NCBI GenBank assembly: GCA_017857855.1 | Contig: JAFMCI010000021.1 | Location: 1-32,500, forward strand | DNA from: Bacteroidia bacterium | GTDB taxonomy: Bacteria > Bacteroidota > Bacteroidia > NS11-12g > UBA9320 | DNA length: 32,500 nt | Direction: 5' to 3' | In this document: piece by piece, positions 1,887 through 25,959 of the stretch | How the letters are laid out: every line of letters begins with the position of its first letter | Position numbering within the stretch: the stretch's first letter is position 1 | Position numbers and translations under genes: made by a program | The notes under the pieces: model-generated | Databases searched by the model: none | Told to the model about the DNA's origin: nothing | What the model saw: only the letters and a program-made list of their open reading frames with translations

Positions 1887-3008
1887 ATGAAAAAATCAAT
1901 CTATTCCATAGCTATAATCGGACTATTTGCTGCTTGTTCTAGTAGCGAAAATCCTACGAGTGATGAAAATAACGTAAGTACTTCATCGCTTATCGAAGTG
2001 AGCAATGCACAATTTGAGGCGAATCAACTTAGTTTAGCTTCCCCCCAACCCTTTACATTTACTTCTACCATTAAATGTACAGGAAAAGTGGATGTTCCGC
2101 CTGAATTTATGGCATCTATTAGCACCTACTATCAAGGATATGTAAAAGGAATAAAGCTCATAGAAGGTGAGTTTGTAAACAAAGGGCAATTATTATTTGT
2201 CCTAGAAAACCCAGAATACTTGCAAATACAGCAAGATTTCTTAGAGGCGAAAGAACAGTTAGTCTATTTAAAAAGCGAATACGATCGTCAAAAAACTTTG
2301 GCAAATGAGAATATTTCTGCACAGAAAAACTACCTCAAAGCCAAATCGGATTACGCTGTTAATAGTACACGCTATGAAGCGTTAAAAAAGAAGTTGAGCT
2401 TAATGGGAATTAGTACCGCTTCCCTAGACAACTCTAGCCTACAATCATCTATACATATTACGGCCCCCATTTCAGGCTACGTAAGCAGTATTAATGTAAG
2501 CCAAGGTAAAGTCTTGAGTCCAAATGAAGTTGCCCTAATCATTACCAATACCGAGCACTTACATGTCGAAATAATGGTATTTGAAAAGGACATACTAAAG
2601 GTTGTAAAAGGGCAAAAGATTCATTATAAATTTGCAGGAAGCTCTAAAGAATTAGGCGGCGAAGTGCATTTGGTAAGCAGAGCAGTAACTCAAGGTGCAG
2701 GAGCCATTAGCGTTCACGGACACATCAACAATTCTGATGAATTAAAGAACATGTACCCTGGAATGTTTGTAGAAGCAGAAATCATAACAGAAGCCAACAA
2801 TCAACTAGGCTTACCCGAAAGCAGTGTCATAGAAATAGAAGGCAAATTTTACGTTTTACGCTTGAAGGAAAAGAATGCTAAATCGTATAATTTCGAAAAA
2901 CAAGAAGTGACCATAGTAGACAAAAGCAATGGATACGTGCATTTAGAAGGAATTAAAGAAGGAGATCAAGTCTTAAGCAAAGGAGCTTTCGATCTACTTA
3001 CAGAATAA
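1887..3008 (+). CDS. RND efflux periplasmic adaptor (CusB/HlyD-like membrane fusion protein), lipoprotein
   Basis: This 373-residue protein bridges the inner-membrane pump and outer-membrane channel. It begins with a lipoprotein signal, MKKSIYSIAI followed by lipobox FAAC (Cys17), so it is probably anchored by lipid. Next come a barrel-sandwich half (about 60-105, with GYVKGIKLIEGEFVNKGQLL), a helical hairpin (about 108-165), the second lipoyl half (HITAPISGYVSSINVSQGKVL) and beta-barrel and membrane-proximal domains at the C-terminus. The ATG lies 5 nt after the stop of the fused pump-channel gene, so the two are surely co-transcribed. No N-terminal metal-binding domain and no His- or Met-rich stretch is visible, so the sequence does not identify the metal. 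Confidence 0.9.
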   Translation: MKKSIYSIAIIGLFAACSSSENPTSDENNVSTSSLIEVSNAQFEANQLSLASPQPFTFTSTIKCTGKVDVPPEFMASISTYYQGYVKGIKLIEGEFVNKGQLLFVLENPEYLQIQQDFLEAKEQLVYLKSEYDRQKTLANENISAQKNYLKAKSDYAVNSTRYEALKKKLSLMGISTASLDNSSLQSSIHITAPISGYVSSINVSQGKVLSPNEVALIITNTEHLHVEIMVFEKDILKVVKGQKIHYKFAGSSKELGGEVHLVSRAVTQGAGAISVHGHINNSDELKNMYPGMFVEAEIITEANNQLGLPESSVIEIEGKFYVLRLKEKNAKSYNFEKQEVTIVDKSNGYVHLEGIKEGDQVLSKGAFDLLTE

Positions 3009-16528: not shown

Positions 16529-17380
16529 ATGGAGTTAGGAAAAACACAACTATTAAAAGCCTCAAGAACAACGGATAACGGATGCTACCTTATGGATGAG
16601 GTAGGTAATGAAGTTTTACTTCCTAATGCCTATGTTTCTTCCGAACTTAAATTGGGTGATGACATATCGGTTTTTGTATACAAAGACAACGATCAAAGGC
16701 TTACTGCTACTACCTTAAAACCTAAGGTTGAGCTCGAGCAATTTGCTTTTCTCGAAGTTATGGATGTAAACGCCGCTGGTGCGTTTGTGGATATGGGTAT
16801 CGTAAAACAACTGCTGGTTCCTTACAGTGAACAACCTGTAAAAATGGAAGTAGGTGACTGGTACATTGTGTTTTTTATGCTTGATGATGTATCGGATAGG
16901 TTAATAGGATCTGCTAACATTGAAGACTTTTTATTTACGGAAGACTTAGATATTGAAGTAGGCGAAGAAGTAGATATTTTGATGTACAGAAGAAGTGACT
17001 TAGGCATAAATGCTATAGTAAACGGTTTGTATCAAGGCCTTGTTTTTCATTCTGACGTACACAGACCTGCAAGACCAGGTGATCAAATGAAAGCCTATGT
17101 AAAGAACATTAGAGCAGATGGAAAAATTGACCTTTCGCTACAACCTATGGGTTATCGCAACGTAATTGACAAGGCGACTCAATCGGTTTTAGATGTTCTC
17201 ATAAAAAATGAGGGTTTCTTTAAGTACAGTGACAAAAGTAACCCCGACGAGATTTACAAAGCTTTTAAAATGAGTAAGAAGGCATTTAAAAAAGCGTTAG
17301 GTAGTTTATACAAACAAAAAATTGTGTTGCTTGAAAAAGACGGAACACGACTTTTAAAAGGGAAAGGTTCTAGTAACTAG
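16529..17380 (+). CDS. S1-domain RNA-binding protein, CvfB/YitL-like
   Basis: 283 residues built as in CvfB: three S1-like beta-barrels (about 5-63, 66-128, 143-207) and a C-terminal winged helix (about 220-280: YSDKSNPDEIYKAFKMSKKAFKKALGSLYKQKIV). Motifs include LEVMDVNAAGAFVDMGIVKQLLVPYSEQ and YVKNIRADGKIDLSLQP. It is cytosolic and expected to bind RNA; in Firmicutes the relative affects virulence gene expression, but its biochemical role in Bacteroidota is not established. The stop codon TAG (17378-17380) overlaps the stop of the convergent outer-membrane gene through the palindrome CTAG. Confidence 0.9.
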   Translation: MELGKTQLLKASRTTDNGCYLMDEVGNEVLLPNAYVSSELKLGDDISVFVYKDNDQRLTATTLKPKVELEQFAFLEVMDVNAAGAFVDMGIVKQLLVPYSEQPVKMEVGDWYIVFFMLDDVSDRLIGSANIEDFLFTEDLDIEVGEEVDILMYRRSDLGINAIVNGLYQGLVFHSDVHRPARPGDQMKAYVKNIRADGKIDLSLQPMGYRNVIDKATQSVLDVLIKNEGFFKYSDKSNPDEIYKAFKMSKKAFKKALGSLYKQKIVLLEKDGTRLLKGKGSSN

Positions 17381-20300
17381 AATAAATACCTGGCGACCAA
17401 TCTTCCAATATGAATCACAGGAGATGATTCACTTTTACGCCCATCATAGCTAATAATCACCTGAATATTATTAGACATGGTACGTTGATATCCCATTTTC
17501 CAGGTTGCATTATTGCCATTTTGAAGACCTCGGAGTAATTCATATCCTAAGGTAGAGCTAGCCACACCGTCATACTTCACCTTTATATAACTAACCGCTG
17601 CATTTACGGTTCCTTTAGTTGATTTGGTATACTTTACCTCACTCCCAAATTCTAAGTTACGTGAACTTTCGCCGCCGTATTCCGCAAGATTAGCGGCATT
17701 AAAGTATTTCGTTTTTAGCTCAATGCGATACGTATTATTAATTAGCATTTGCAGCTTAGGTTCTACCTCATAAAAACCGTAATGGTAACTTCGTGCTCCA
17801 AAGAATTCGCTTAGATACAGCTTATCTCCCATTACCATTCGGGTGTCTAACGTGAACATTCTCCCTAAATTAATACGTACATTTAATACGTTATCCCAAG
17901 TAGATCTGCTGTCAAAACCATTACTTAGAAGTGTTTTAGAACTCGCATTCATATAGGTGTAATCAAAACTATACTTAGGATTTCCTCTGTTGTAAAATAA
18001 CGTAGTCCTAAAACTAATAGCACTATTTATAAGCCCTGTATCTGTTAGACTACGTTCAGCTGGATTTAAAAACCCAAGTATAGTGTTGGGTAAGATCTTC
18101 TTGTCTAGAATAAGCGTGCTTATGTTATTAAACCTTGCCATAACAGGCTTCTTTTGAACGCCAGACTTAAAAAAAACTGCAGGTGTTAACTCAAACGTTT
18201 GACTTATTTTATTGCTATTGGTGGTAAAAAAACCAGGAACAGGGGTAAATATTTTGATATAATCTGCCCGTTGCCTATCTAAGTCAGATGCTATTTCGAA
18301 CTCATTAAGTGTCTTCAGGTTATTAGAATCATAATCTATCCAAACATACACTCCATTTCCTGCTTGTACCTGCAAAAATTGAAATTCACGGCGTTGTTCT
18401 TGTCCTGTACCTAATTGATAAAAAGTACGGGTTCTGATAAATTTCTTAAGGAAATGAAAGTCCATCTCTAACCTGCTTTGCAAGGTATTTTCGATAGGTT
18501 TATCACTTAAATTTACGTCTTTAATTTCGAGTTTTCGGTAGGTACTGCTTAGTTCAATTCGTTGGTTTCTAGATGTAGTGTATTGGGTGTTTAAACTTAC
18601 ATCACTTCCCACTGTAGAAAGTAAAAATTGATCATTTTTAGGAAGATTATCCGTTCGCTGATTCGCCATTACAGAATATTTTAGTTGAGCACTGTCCCTC
18701 GACGAAAGAAAAACAGAATAATTCTTAAACGCATAACTCTGTTGGAGTAAGGTATCTAATTGGAATATGCTTCGCTCATTTACGTAACCAACTCCTGCAT
18801 TCACCTTACCTAATGGCCTACTTAGCAGACTATTGAAACTATAAAACACATTACTCAAATCAGCAGTATCACCCTCATTAGTAGAGGATTGAGTCCACTC
18901 TAAACTGGTATTTAATTGTATTTTTTGCCATGTAAATGCTCCATCAGATAGGTTAGAAAAACCAACAAAATTATCGGGTCTAAAGAAGAATGAAGAATTG
19001 TTTTTAACATACTTATTAGCACTTTTCTGTAGTCCAAAACTTACATTTCCAATATGCTCATATGCAGGTAGAAGTTGAGCAACTGAGGTAGGATTGGTTA
19101 ATTGTTTGTTCCATTTTCGATCAAACTCAACAGCACGGTAACGCTCTACATAGCGGTACTGACCACTTACCATCTCGTAATTAACATTGGTATTCCAAGT
19201 TATCGTAGAATCTTTTAATTGTTTTGAAGTGGTACGATATAGCCTAAGACCAAAACCCTCATTATCGTTATCATCTAAGGCCGAAAGCGTGTTTTTATCA
19301 CGATTACTTCTGGAATATTCTATACCGCTTATCCTATTCTTGGTGGCAAATTTAAGTCCCACATTGACGGCTTTTAAGCTTTGAGGGGCAATTAATATTT
19401 CGATAGGATCATAGTCTCCCCTATTTTTTCCTACGTATTCAAATACTTTTCCATTTGCTGCAGTTTGCGCTTGGGAATAGCTGCCCTTGAGCACTCCTAC
19501 ATTACTAAAGAACACTTCATAAAATGTTACATTAGCGGAAGGATCTTGCGCGTAGATAAAAATGTCTGTGCCTCCTACTAAACTTTTGGTGTACATAATA
19601 CGATCCGTATTATATGCCAATTGCGGTTTCACCTTAGAAATTAAAGCAACACCGTCTCCCGCCTCAGATAAGAGTGTTCTAGCACTTTTATTTTGGAGCG
19701 AATCAAAAGTTTCTAAATCCACTTGAAAAGGTTGAGATTTAAGGTCTAGCTCATTAAAGGCATTGGCATATATAGTAAATCCATTTTTGCTAGCCGACGA
19801 ACCTAAGTGCATAACCGCTCTACCGTAGTTCCTATCCGAATATTGAAACTCTACCACTATTCTGCTGTACCTTGTAATAAGAATACGTGGGGTAAAAGTG
19901 ATTTCACCAGTATTATAATTAACTACGTAGTCGTTGTTTTCACCACGTGTTAGGGCCCTACCGTCTAAAAATACATTTTCAGTACCTGCTATAACAACGA
20001 TAAACAATTCACCGTTTTCTCCTGATAGTCTATAAGGACCGCTATTCCCTTCTATTCCATCTATCCTATTTCGATTAAATCTACCACGAGACAAAGCAGC
20101 TTCAGCATCTGTCTTTATGCTCCAATCGTGAGAATGGGTTACATTTTGTATTTGAAGTCCGCGTGATTTTTTATAATAATTGATGAAGTAAGAATCAACG
20201 GGCCTCTGCATCAAAAAATCACCTAAGGTAAGGGTTGTACTGTCCTTTTTTAGGGTAATGTAAACTTGATCAAAGTCCTGAATTTGCTGCGTATTTCCTT

Positions 20301-20823
20301 CGGGTTGAATAGGATTATTTTCGTCACTGATAACGGCTAGCACATCAACGTCATTGGCCACGGTGCCATTTATCCTAAGATTCAAATTTGAGTTAACAAC
20401 CACATCTTGTGCATTGCCAAAGCCAATACCACGAGAAACATTTCCAGCAGAATTTAGCGTTCCATAATCTATCAGTTCACCGGCTTTATTGGGTTCATAC
20501 CTAAATGGATTTTGCTCGTAGCTATTGTAAATTATGCCCTGATCCTTGCGTTTATAGGTTACCGCAAACTGCAGCTTCTTATAACTCACCAACACACTAT
20601 CTGGCCTAGTCTTAGTGTACCAAACTACCTTATTATGAACCTGTAAAAAATCTTTTGGACTCTCATACCCTTGAATGGTAAGTGAACCGTTTAGCACAAA
20701 ACCCGAATCTACCAATGAGGTATCGCCTGGCTCGAGCAACAGGTACTTGCTAATGGACGTACTCAACTGCCCGTGCACTAGAGATGAAAGACTAAGCAAT
20801 AATATAGTAAGTAATTTATGCAA
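17377..20823 (-). CDS. Large outer-membrane beta-barrel protein of unknown function
   Basis: About 1148 residues. No ATG is available; TTG 20823 gives a clean signal peptide MHKLLTILLLSLSSLVHGQ, while TTG 20850 would add nine residues. The first 300 residues contain a beta segment with NLNLRINGTVANDVDVLAVI, PEGNTQQIQDFDQVYI and LTLGDFLMQRP, followed by a small fold with FLDGRALTRGENNDYVVNYNTGEITFTPR and VVEFQYSDRNYGR. The rest is a long run of alternating amphipathic strands ending in F (LVARYLF), as expected for an outer-membrane barrel. The N-terminal pattern reminds me of large SprA-like or related Bacteroidota surface proteins, but length and motifs do not fit SprA. No TonB box or plug is visible. 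Function unknown. Confidence 0.72.
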   Translation of the reverse strand: MHKLLTILLLSLSSLVHGQLSTSISKYLLLEPGDTSLVDSGFVLNGSLTIQGYESPKDFLQVHNKVVWYTKTRPDSVLVSYKKLQFAVTYKRKDQGIIYNSYEQNPFRYEPNKAGELIDYGTLNSAGNVSRGIGFGNAQDVVVNSNLNLRINGTVANDVDVLAVISDENNPIQPEGNTQQIQDFDQVYITLKKDSTTLTLGDFLMQRPVDSYFINYYKKSRGLQIQNVTHSHDWSIKTDAEAALSRGRFNRNRIDGIEGNSGPYRLSGENGELFIVVIAGTENVFLDGRALTRGENNDYVVNYNTGEITFTPRILITRYSRIVVEFQYSDRNYGRAVMHLGSSASKNGFTIYANAFNELDLKSQPFQVDLETFDSLQNKSARTLLSEAGDGVALISKVKPQLAYNTDRIMYTKSLVGGTDIFIYAQDPSANVTFYEVFFSNVGVLKGSYSQAQTAANGKVFEYVGKNRGDYDPIEILIAPQSLKAVNVGLKFATKNRISGIEYSRSNRDKNTLSALDDNDNEGFGLRLYRTTSKQLKDSTITWNTNVNYEMVSGQYRYVERYRAVEFDRKWNKQLTNPTSVAQLLPAYEHIGNVSFGLQKSANKYVKNNSSFFFRPDNFVGFSNLSDGAFTWQKIQLNTSLEWTQSSTNEGDTADLSNVFYSFNSLLSRPLGKVNAGVGYVNERSIFQLDTLLQQSYAFKNYSVFLSSRDSAQLKYSVMANQRTDNLPKNDQFLLSTVGSDVSLNTQYTTSRNQRIELSSTYRKLEIKDVNLSDKPIENTLQSRLEMDFHFLKKFIRTRTFYQLGTGQEQRREFQFLQVQAGNGVYVWIDYDSNNLKTLNEFEIASDLDRQRADYIKIFTPVPGFFTTNSNKISQTFELTPAVFFKSGVQKKPVMARFNNISTLILDKKILPNTILGFLNPAERSLTDTGLINSAISFRTTLFYNRGNPKYSFDYTYMNASSKTLLSNGFDSRSTWDNVLNVRINLGRMFTLDTRMVMGDKLYLSEFFGARSYHYGFYEVEPKLQMLINNTYRIELKTKYFNAANLAEYGGESSRNLEFGSEVKYTKSTKGTVNAAVSYIKVKYDGVASSTLGYELLRGLQNGNNATWKMGYQRTMSNNIQVIISYDGRKSESSPVIHIGRLVARYLF

Positions 20824-20903
20824 TGCGTTTGGGGCAAGTAGGCAAAGCAAAGAAACGAAATTTGTGGTGCTTTAGGTATTCCGGCTTACCCACAAGTAAT
20901 TAT

Positions 20904-23647: not shown

Positions 23648-25291
23648 TTAATTCAATTCTATCACGGTTTGACATTCTTTTTTTACACTCGGGTCATTGC
23701 TAACCATCACTAGCGTCTTTCCTTTACATCGATGGAATAAGAGATTTAACAATTCCATTTTGTTCTCTTCTTTGAGTCCAGAAAAAACATCTTCTACTAA
23801 CACTAATTTAGGCTGAGTAATAAGTGCTCTAGCCATAATTAATCGCACCCTATCCGTACCAGATAGTATACTATTGGCATTCATAATAATATGATTATAG
23901 CCGTCTGGAAAGCTAAGAATCAGTTTTTCTAAACCTACTTCTTTGATGATGTTTACCAAATCCTCATCAGATATTCCTTCTTGACCTAAGGATATGTTTT
24001 CCCTAAAGGTTCCATAAAAAATCTCCTGATCATAAAAAACACATCCAATGTCTTTTCTCAGTTCTTCTATATCAATATTTTGAAGTGGAATATCATTGTA
24101 TAAAATAGTTCCGTTATAATTATCAATGCTAGTGCTCAATATTTTCAATAAGCTGGTTTTACCACTTCCAGAGTCACCCACTAAGCAAGTAGCCGTGCCC
24201 GCACTAATGGTAAGATTGACATTTTTCCTAATTATTTTCTGGTCTAAGGTCCCCACTATATCCAAATTCTTCACCTTAATTCCTATGGATGCATGCGCAT
24301 TAAGTGAAAGCGCGTTCTTTACTGGTTCTTCTATTTCTATATCGGTTACTTTACCCAGCTTTTCGATAGAGGTAAGTACATCATAAATAGCCTCCATACT
24401 CATAATCAGTTTTTCGGAGGAGTTGAGTATCAAAATAATTACAATCTCTGAAGCTACAAACTGTCCAATGGTAATGCTATTGGAAATAAGCAATAATGCT
24501 CCTACTACCAGTAGACTTGCGGTCACCAAAGTCTTTAAAGCGATTATGCTACTGTATTGACTCAAGAGGACTTTGAAGTGCCGCTTACGAGAGTCGACAT
24601 AGTTATGCAGAATATCATCTGTTCGTTTAAAATTGAGTTCAGAACTTGCACTTAACTTAAAGGTAGGTATCGCTCGTGCTAATTCCGTTAGCCAAAAAGC
24701 CATTTCATATTTATAATTACTTTCTTCAATGCTTGTTCGCATACCTGGCCTGCCTGTAAGATATATAATAATAAATAAAATGAGTAAAAGCACTATCCCA
24801 AAAGCAATAAAAATAGGATGATATAAGGATAGGAGAATTAATCCAAAAATGATTTGAAGAATAGATGTAGAAAAATCTAGCAATATTTTGGATAGGCTTT
24901 TTTGAATATTAACCGTATCAAAAAAACGATTCACCAATTCAGGTGGGTAGTAGTTTCCTAAGGACTTTAGCTTAAACTTAGGTATACGGTATGCAAAATC
25001 AAATGCCGCACGTGCAAATAATCTGCGTTGAAGTATCTCCACAATATACAATTGCATAATTTGAAATATGCCGGCTACCGCTACTCCCAGCATCACAAGC
25101 ACCGTAAGAATTCCCCATGAGGCAGAAAGTCTGCCAGCTAGCACCAAGCCCATAATCGCTTGTATGCCTATAGGCAAGGATAGACTAATTATACCATTGC
25201 AAATGGCATATAAATACAGATAAGTAAGGTCTCGTTTATCAGGATTTAATAAACCCCAAAATCGCTGTATAGGTTTTAAGGTAGACTTCAT
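23648..25291 (-). CDS. ABC exporter (TMD-NBD fusion) with degenerate ATPase motifs
   Basis: 547 residues. An N-terminal ABC-type-1 transmembrane domain (about 20-300, some six helices) is followed by an ATPase domain, as in peptidase-less type I/bacteriocin exporters; no C39 domain. Walker A is intact (GDSGSGKT, 372-379), but the other motifs are altered: the Q-loop Gln is Tyr420 (IGCVFYDQEIFYGT), the signature is LSGTD (476-480) instead of LSGGQ, the Walker B/catalytic pair DE is Glu500-Asp501 (LVLVEDVF), and the H-loop His is Asn532 (MVSND). ATP binding is likely; normal hydrolysis is doubtful. Its ATG shares one base with the TetR stop (TAATG), and HlyD follows 1 nt downstream. Substrate unknown. 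Confidence 0.88.
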   Translation of the reverse strand: MKSTLKPIQRFWGLLNPDKRDLTYLYLYAICNGIISLSLPIGIQAIMGLVLAGRLSASWGILTVLVMLGVAVAGIFQIMQLYIVEILQRRLFARAAFDFAYRIPKFKLKSLGNYYPPELVNRFFDTVNIQKSLSKILLDFSTSILQIIFGLILLSLYHPIFIAFGIVLLLILFIIIYLTGRPGMRTSIEESNYKYEMAFWLTELARAIPTFKLSASSELNFKRTDDILHNYVDSRKRHFKVLLSQYSSIIALKTLVTASLLVVGALLLISNSITIGQFVASEIVIILILNSSEKLIMSMEAIYDVLTSIEKLGKVTDIEIEEPVKNALSLNAHASIGIKVKNLDIVGTLDQKIIRKNVNLTISAGTATCLVGDSGSGKTSLLKILSTSIDNYNGTILYNDIPLQNIDIEELRKDIGCVFYDQEIFYGTFRENISLGQEGISDEDLVNIIKEVGLEKLILSFPDGYNHIIMNANSILSGTDRVRLIMARALITQPKLVLVEDVFSGLKEENKMELLNLLFHRCKGKTLVMVSNDPSVKKECQTVIELN

Positions 25292-25959
25292 TATTTAATG
25301 GCTGAAAAGGTTAAGTGTACAATAAATTTTTTTAGGTTGGCGTGGTCATCTTCTAGCACATCGGTTAGCCGGGGCAAGTGTTGACTGAAAAATATCTGAC
25401 TATGGCATGTTTCAATGATGGTAGAAGCCAAGGTATGCGAATGTTGATAATTCATGTTTAATGCCAGGATTTGATCAGAAATAAGTGAACAAAGGGTCTT
25501 ATAACTCAAGTAAGCACCTCCAGTGTTTACCATATCAACATCCTTTACCAAATATACTTTAGCTCCTTCTGCAATAATGATGCGATACAACTTTTGCTCA
25601 TCAATGTACGTATAGTTGAAATCTTGCTCTATCGGAGAAGCCAATATATCAATGGTACTTTCAAGTTTTTCAGCAGCAGAGTTAAGCGTATACGTGGTAA
25701 ACAATATTTTGTTCTGCAACCAACTCCAATACCAGTTTACAAGGTAGGTAAGCAGCTTATGCTTATTTTCAAAATACCTATAAATAGTTGCTTCTGTGGA
25801 AGACATGGCGATAGCCAGTTTCTTGAAGGTGAATTGCTCGAGACCAATTTCGTCGATTAGGTTGATACTTTCTTGCAGCAATTTCTTACCCAGATCAGAC
25901 TCGCGAGGGTCTTTTAAACTGATTCCAGTATCTATAGTGAATGAAATATTTTGTAGCAT
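25291..25959 (-). CDS. TetR/AcrR-family transcriptional regulator
   Basis: 222 residues. After a 20-residue extension comes the TetR helix-turn-helix (about 25-75): GKKLLQESINLIDEIGLEQFTFKKLAIAM, STEATIYRYFENKHKLLTYLV. The remaining 145 residues are helical, as in ligand-binding TetR domains, without a recognisable subfamily. It is the first gene of the exporter operon and stands 14 nt behind a pair of palindromes that are likely operators, so autoregulation and control of the ABC-HlyD-TolC genes are expected. TetR proteins usually act as repressors released by a small molecule, often an exported substrate. Start ATG 25959. Confidence 0.88.
   Translation of the reverse strand: MLQNISFTIDTGISLKDPRESDLGKKLLQESINLIDEIGLEQFTFKKLAIAMSSTEATIYRYFENKHKLLTYLVNWYWSWLQNKILFTTYTLNSAAEKLESTIDILASPIEQDFNYTYIDEQKLYRIIIAEGAKVYLVKDVDMVNTGGAYLSYKTLCSLISDQILALNMNYQHSHTLASTIIETCHSQIFFSQHLPRLTDVLEDDHANLKKFIVHLTFSAIK

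Follow-up and report, generated by a model that had tools for sequence, protein, structure and literature searches.

A Bacteroidota-wide family of putative tripartite export pumps with a disarmed or deleted ATPase domain

In ABC transporters the nucleotide-binding domains (NBDs) are conserved more than any other part and are said to supply the energy. What drives a membrane protein of the ABC-exporter type when nearly all motifs of its NBD are degenerate? A gene from a Bacteroidia bacterium raises this question, and we analyzed it within a stretch of 32,500 nucleotides (contig JAFMCI010000021.1, positions 1–32,500; referred to as the window) and compared it with relatives from across the phylum. 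The reading we prefer, with a probability of roughly 0.58, is that the gene product is the inner-membrane component of a tripartite exporter under TetR control (ABC-fold transmembrane domain (TMD), HlyD and TolC) belonging to a Bacteroidota-wide family, in which ATP hydrolysis would have been lost, the TMD would be an ion- or proton-coupled engine and the NBD would be non-hydrolytic.

The features of the locus are listed in Table 1. The exporter ORF is intact, and Pfam assigns ABC_membrane to residues 26–283 and ABC_tran to residues 356–499 of its product. The TetR, ABC, HlyD and TolC/OEP genes all lie on the same strand and abut or overlap by no more than about 20 bases, so that the operon holds an inner-membrane transporter, a HlyD adaptor and a TolC channel, the gene set of a HlyD/TolC tripartite exporter. 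A previous reading of the window, made from the letters alone (the sequence-only reading), had described the operon as intact and tight, and both ORFs and Pfam agree with it. In relatives the OEP gene occupies the same position, and a TetR gene adjoins or diverges from most NBD-bearing members; HlyD is the partner gene of NBD-bearing and NBD-less forms alike and is fused to the TMD in one clade. The family gene is single-copy in the source genome, whose other ABC exporters include ones with LSGGQ. At 71 bases downstream of the TolC gene, on the same strand, a 1157-aa protein without Pfam match is encoded (17377–20850, minus strand); it ends in Phe like an outer-membrane barrel and is possibly part of the operon.

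Table 1. Position of the operon genes and of the exporter's domains and motifs in the window.
Feature	Position	Strand	Basis or remark
TetR-family regulator	25291..25959	-	ORF; Pfam TetR_N, E=9.7e-6; heads the operon
ABC-exporter-type membrane protein, 547 aa, with degenerate NBD	23648..25291	-	ORF, Pfam, AlphaFold2, Foldseek
HlyD-family periplasmic adaptor, 450 aa	22294..23646	-	Pfam
TolC-type outer-membrane channel (OEP), 463 aa	20922..22313	-	Pfam OEP, E=2e-25
Transmembrane domain, residues 5-325	24317..25279	-	present in every relative, NBD-less and HlyD-fused forms included
TM6, residues 275-316, with near-invariant E282, E293, K294, D304	24344..24469	-	alignment and AlphaFold2 model
Coupling helix 1, residues 116-123	24923..24946	-	conserved in the window protein; eroded in two of the three clades without NBD
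Coupling-helix 2 region, residues 198-220	24632..24700	-	conserved in the window protein; eroded and shortened in two NBD-less clades, reduced in the third
Degenerate NBD, residues 338-547	23651..24280	-	Pfam, AlphaFold2, identity and dN/dS comparisons
Walker A GDSGSGKT, intact, residues 372-379	24155..24178	-	translation and family alignment
Q-loop position, Tyr420 in place of Gln	24032..24034	-	profile alignment
Signature position LSGTD, residues 476-480, in place of LSGGQ	23852..23866	-	profile alignment
Walker B Asp and catalytic Glu positions, Glu500-Asp501	23789..23794	-	profile alignment
H-loop position, Asn532 in place of His	23696..23698	-	profile alignment

The sequence-only reading had named an intact Walker A and four degenerate motifs, and translation and profile alignment confirmed each residue (Walker A, Tyr420, LSGTD, Glu500-Asp501 and Asn532). 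As a control on the register, a canonical exporter of the window's order was represented by 29 orthologues in the same profile alignment. At the motif columns of the window protein these controls showed the Q-loop Gln, LSGGQ, the Walker B Asp, the catalytic Glu and the H-loop His in 29/29 cases each. A matching of the wrong residues, which the reading had itself named as its possible error, is thus excluded. The A-loop aromatic is also gone in the window's genus, where the position is Gly347, and is Tyr or Phe in 79 of 109 relatives. Compared with ATP-driven type IV (ABCB-like) exporters, the window protein has the fold with a C-terminal NBD and the Walker A motif but lacks LSGGQ, the Walker B Asp, the catalytic Glu, the Q-loop Gln and the H-loop His.

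We then determined how far these substitutions extend. A homologue at E≤1e-60 was present in 65 of the 108 genomes of the window's order; a match to the family profile at the same threshold was found in 213 of the 396 genomes of its class, a count that may take in ordinary C39-type exporters. The cognate HlyD was detected in 79 of 392 genomes sampled from the phylum. Motifs were compared in 109 NBD-bearing sequences from across Bacteroidota, some of them partial. The Walker A pattern G-x4-GK is retained in 105 of these, and LSGGQ in none. The Q-loop Gln was found in 18/109, the Walker B Asp in 12/109, the catalytic Glu in 13/109 (the D-E pair in 3/109) and the H-loop His in 2/109; the complete catalytic set does not occur (0/109). 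Twelve further relatives lack Walker A too. Only in six distant relatives, which belong to other classes of the phylum, is the D-E pair retained together with the His; their signatures include LSTGQ. Members from Riemerella anatipestifer and Aureibacter tunicatorum are annotated as "ABC transporter ATP-binding protein" with the motifs gone, in the latter including Walker A.

The sequence-only reading had suspected a whole non-canonical subfamily rather than a single oddity. The collected homologues and their motif alignment bear this out and show that it did not go far enough: the same positions are substituted in one family of the phylum after another, and three lineages have no ATPase domain at all. 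Judged by sequence, this is a large and unrecognised family of bacterial export pumps with an ATPase domain that appears disarmed and in some lineages deleted, its members still annotated as ATP-driven. A description of the family was not found in the open-access literature searched. Its parts are of known kinds, and so is an ABC-derived transporter without a working ATPase; the setting, with a tripartite exporter, a TMD-HlyD fusion and graded intermediates, was not found described.

Some members differ in length or context. Three relatives (L204–L206) carry an N-terminal extension of about 160 residues as in C39-peptidase exporters together with the same degenerate NBD; in L204 no C39 domain was called by Pfam. 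L169, L200 and L201 (511 aa) have an NBD remnant with no recognisable P-loop, which looks like late NBD erosion. In Riemerella anatipestifer (NZ_CP081930.1, 94362–98716) the family is located on a 100-kb record labelled as a plasmid; murB and further housekeeping genes lie on this record too, which is possibly a mislabelled chromosome.

The substitution pattern could be taken for residual or unconventional ATP hydrolysis, in which the acids of Glu500-Asp501 have traded the Walker B and catalytic roles and the pump remains a primary transporter. Both acids are common (E500 in 85/109 and D501 in 76/109 NBD-bearing relatives) and Walker A is retained. We nevertheless consider this distinctly improbable, as signature, Q-loop and H-loop are lost too, 20/109 have Asn, Ser, Lys or Ala at position 501, and the operon stays intact in several branches that lack Walker A or the entire NBD. 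In heterodimeric exporters, degenerate sites with Asp for Glu do function, next to a canonical partner site (reviewed in PMC7756269). Swapped acids, one of four mechanisms proposed by the sequence-only reading, are unlikely as a general mechanism because several branches have lost Walker A and the acids, in part by deletion, and kept the rest of the system.

Next we compared the constraint on the two domains. TMD identity exceeded NBD identity in 630/630 family pairs, whereas the canonical controls showed the opposite, with the NBD more similar than the TMD in 369/406 pairs. Against the nearest relative, dN/dS was 0.068 for the NBD, 0.046 for TMD residues 1–250, 0.016 for TM5-6 and 0.030 for HlyD; these values rest on one pair, beyond which the comparison is saturated. 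The NBD of the window's lineage is under purifying selection and is not junk. The earlier statement that the gene is not a decaying pseudogene holds with this NBD value and with the conservation of the substitutions across families, and the same two results reject a strain-specific decay.

The strongest departure from ABC exporters is the absence of the NBD itself. At 26 inspected loci, 16 in the window's order (L060–L073, L075, L076) and 10 in other families (L172, L174–L182), only a membrane domain of about 320–340 aa is encoded, followed by HlyD and then TolC/OEP. The TMD stop overlaps the HlyD start at most of these loci, with gaps of 35 and 67 bases in two, and such loci occur in near-closed genomes (G356 with 1 contig, G368 with 2, G273 with 4). 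Four more genomes with ORFs of NBD-less length are outside the 26 inspected. Six relatives (L183–L188) are TMD-HlyD fusions, single proteins of about 750 aa in which the TMD runs directly into HlyD with no ATPase; L185, the only fusion scanned with Pfam, gave ABC_membrane and HlyD and no ABC_tran. At the fusion loci (e.g. L185:4630–6873) TolC comes after the fusion gene and a divergent TetR gene is often located before it.

Two candidates were excluded from the NBD-less set: in L173 (genome G795) the NBD is present in the next frame, and in L074 (G040) the gene is split across two ORFs. A further case, in G673 (L170/L171), is a contig break. For the remaining ORFs an assembly or frameshift artefact was rejected, since the TMD stop lies beside the HlyD start in many independent genomes, some of them near closed.

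A maximum-likelihood tree of the TMD (95 rows) requires three separate changes between presence and absence of the NBD. Well-supported branches force two of them for the TMD-only forms, and the fusion clade accounts for the third. The window protein and L020 are sister (99/92) to a clade of L078, L079 and 13 NBD-less rows, and in L078 and L079 the Walker A Lys is changed to Arg. The tree thus suggests dead motifs, then an altered P-loop, then deletion beside the window's own lineage. The root depends on a very long branch to the canonical outgroup; the direction of the changes varies with it, whereas their number does not. We infer loss rather than gain because the distant relatives are near-canonical. 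More tentatively, and at somewhat less than even odds, these forms would make up a Bacteroidota class of tripartite efflux or secretion pumps with the ABC-exporter fold, energised by an ion gradient, in which the ATPase was lost repeatedly and stepwise (dead NBD, no Walker A, no NBD, TMD-HlyD fusion) and of which the window represents one intermediate.

An NBD-less or degenerate subunit might obtain its energy in trans, from a canonical half-exporter or a free NBD that is encoded elsewhere and pairs with it. It is normal to find degenerate sites in heterodimeric exporters such as TM287/288, TmrAB, TAP and MsRv1273c/72c, which likewise have degenerate signature and catalytic residues with Walker A kept, and all 12 NBD-less genomes searched have several other ABC exporters. 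However, the heterodimers retain one canonical site with their second subunit, whereas a homodimer of the window protein would have both sites dead. We found no second half-exporter gene with a canonical site in the operons, which hold one ABC gene each and no second one, and one family copy in the source genome. Near the NBD-less loci no separate NBD gene was found, and a search of the 12 NBD-less genomes with a family-NBD profile detected no stand-alone or family-type NBD: the best hits reached at most 172 bits and were always within a long exporter ORF (at least 514 aa), compared with 280 and 317 bits in two NBD-bearing control genomes. In two NBD-less clades the coupling helices have become eroded and shorter, so that the docking surface is gone, and the TMD-HlyD fusion suggests a self-contained unit. 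Taken together we regard energy in trans as highly improbable, and the pairing with another ATPase put forward by the sequence-only reading finds no support from operons or genome searches.

The fate of the coupling helices was quantified as conservation relative to the rest of the TMD. In NBD-bearing forms the two helices reach 0.50/0.51 vs 0.53. In two NBD-less clades the values are 0.21/0.19 vs 0.58 and 0.20/0.19 vs 0.56, with deletions; in the third clade the drop is confined to coupling helix 2. Such a collapse is as expected if the NBD is truly gone. The helices are conserved like the remaining TMD as long as the NBD is present, and this could also speak for an ATP-gated facilitator, a regulated channel or ligand-gated conduit resembling CFTR/SUR, in which the NBDs bind ATP and switch the TMD without hydrolysis while the substrate moves down its gradient or is pulled otherwise. 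The retention of Walker A (105/109) and of an A-loop Tyr/Phe (79/109), the loss of the hydrolytic residues and the NBD dN/dS of 0.068 fit this explanation. It is less easily reconciled with the NBD-less and Walker A-less relatives, which retain the system without any nucleotide site, and with the missing A-loop aromatic in the window's own genus, and we regard it as unlikely.

The membrane domain itself is well preserved. In NBD-bearing forms near-invariance was seen for K131, K135, K194, H238, E282, E293, K294, D304 and K311; NBD-less and fused forms mostly retain these residues, H238 more weakly in the fusions. E85 is retained except in some NBD-less members. The conserved charges of the TMD comprise E85, E282, E293 and D304 as well as K131, K194, K253 and K294. 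E282 and E293 are located in the hydrophobic TM6, and K253 in the hydrophobic TM5. In the canonical controls the E282 column is mostly Tyr and the E293 column mostly Lys or Ala, and both glutamates are already present in near-canonical relatives. An AlphaFold2 model of the window protein shows six long TM helices and an NBD fold (pLDDT 77, pTM 0.50; a single monomer model built with 14 sequences, its pTM modest), and the best Foldseek matches of this model were TM287/288, PCAT1, TmrAB and HlyB (HlyB/D). The catalytic loss and the fixed partners would also suit a protein that is no longer a transporter and serves as a membrane scaffold or sensor anchoring HlyD-TolC. This appears scarcely credible given that membrane charges and TM helices are strongly conserved, even after NBD loss, and that the adaptor and channel set, sensible for export, is retained.

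Because the ATPase is disarmed or deleted and the membrane part and its partners are intact, the energy of the pumps probably comes from a source other than ATP hydrolysis. Among the four mechanisms of the sequence-only reading a different energy source appears most favoured, by the NBD-less and HlyD-fused relatives. In the ion- or proton-coupled reading that we prefer, the TMD would be the engine of a secondary exporter, most likely one similar to SbmA, and coupling would proceed through the conserved membrane charges on TM5 and TM6 (K253, E282, E293, K294), which could instead serve substrate binding or HlyD contact; a further point against this reading is the presence of E282 and E293 in near-canonical relatives. 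The NBD of NBD-bearing members probably binds ATP without turnover and would act as a docking, gating, clamp or stabiliser module on the coupling helices; strong Walker A and coupling-helix conservation suggest that it still binds nucleotide and touches the TMD. As Walker A is so strongly kept, nucleotide would matter in these members, and the window protein and its NBD-less relatives need not run alike.

Precedents exist for a TMD that works without NBD. SbmA, an importer derived from ABC transporters and driven by protons, has a glutamate ladder but neither NBD nor coupling helices, and YddA, its full-length NBD-bearing relative, already has part of this ladder (PMC13316013). In both SbmA/BacA (SLiPT) and the family described here charged residues persist in an ABC-exporter TMD from which NBD and coupling helices have disappeared, and the partial ladder of YddA parallels E282/E293 in the near-canonical relatives. 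Unlike the family, SbmA imports peptides, stands alone and has an extra TM0 domain; here a HlyD/TolC tripartite exporter is found, dead-NBD intermediates are abundant and one clade has a TMD-HlyD fusion. The window protein differs from SbmA/BacA in possessing both NBD and coupling helices, which relatives in two clades lack, and no SbmA-family Pfam match was obtained for it or for the scanned NBD-less and fused relatives. Transport with delta-pH was described for MsbA-MD without NBD (PMC4979069), and TM6 E314 of LmrA is required for proton-coupled transport (PMC6155054). The truncated TMDs MsbA-MD and LmrA-MD, for which proton- or ion-coupled transport was reported, were engineered from canonical exporters, whereas the truncation here is natural and repeated. 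With type I secretion and other tripartite ABC exporters (HlyB-HlyD-TolC; C39 PCAT) the family shares gene set and fold, as seen in the Foldseek matches to HlyB and PCAT1, and its best NCBIfam scores are for type I secretion and NHLM exporters, far below the cut-off. It differs from them in that the ATPase motifs are lost or the NBD is absent, and most members are without the C39-type N-terminal extension.

Present in many Bacteroidota genomes, the family offers a natural series of intermediates from primary to secondary transport, and its native proteins allow a direct test of the long-debated idea of the ABC TMD as a stand-alone ion-coupled motor. It would also change how a large set of exporters, labelled by default "ABC transporter ATP-binding protein", is annotated.

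The neighborhoods of several loci showed further features. In the NBD-less clade of the window's order (L060–L076, e.g. L062:1695–8797) the TMD-HlyD-OEP genes are located downstream of a conserved block that holds two unassigned genes of about 300–330 aa and one for a bacterial sugar transferase (PF02397; checked for L062), and gyrB lies downstream of the locus; this clade may have a substrate linked to a glycan or lipid. In several members of family f3 a small ORF of about 116–146 aa without Pfam match lies directly upstream of the NBD-less TMD (L178:6256–6603, L179:5299–5682, L181:4493–4867, L182:4097–4537) and possibly encodes a substrate or an accessory protein. In the window itself, positions 55–1881 on the plus strand encode the C-terminal part of an RND (CusA-type)-like pump that, as judged by eye from the translation, apparently continues in frame into a TolC-like channel domain, forming an RND-OEP fusion, and an adaptor-like gene follows at 1887–3008.
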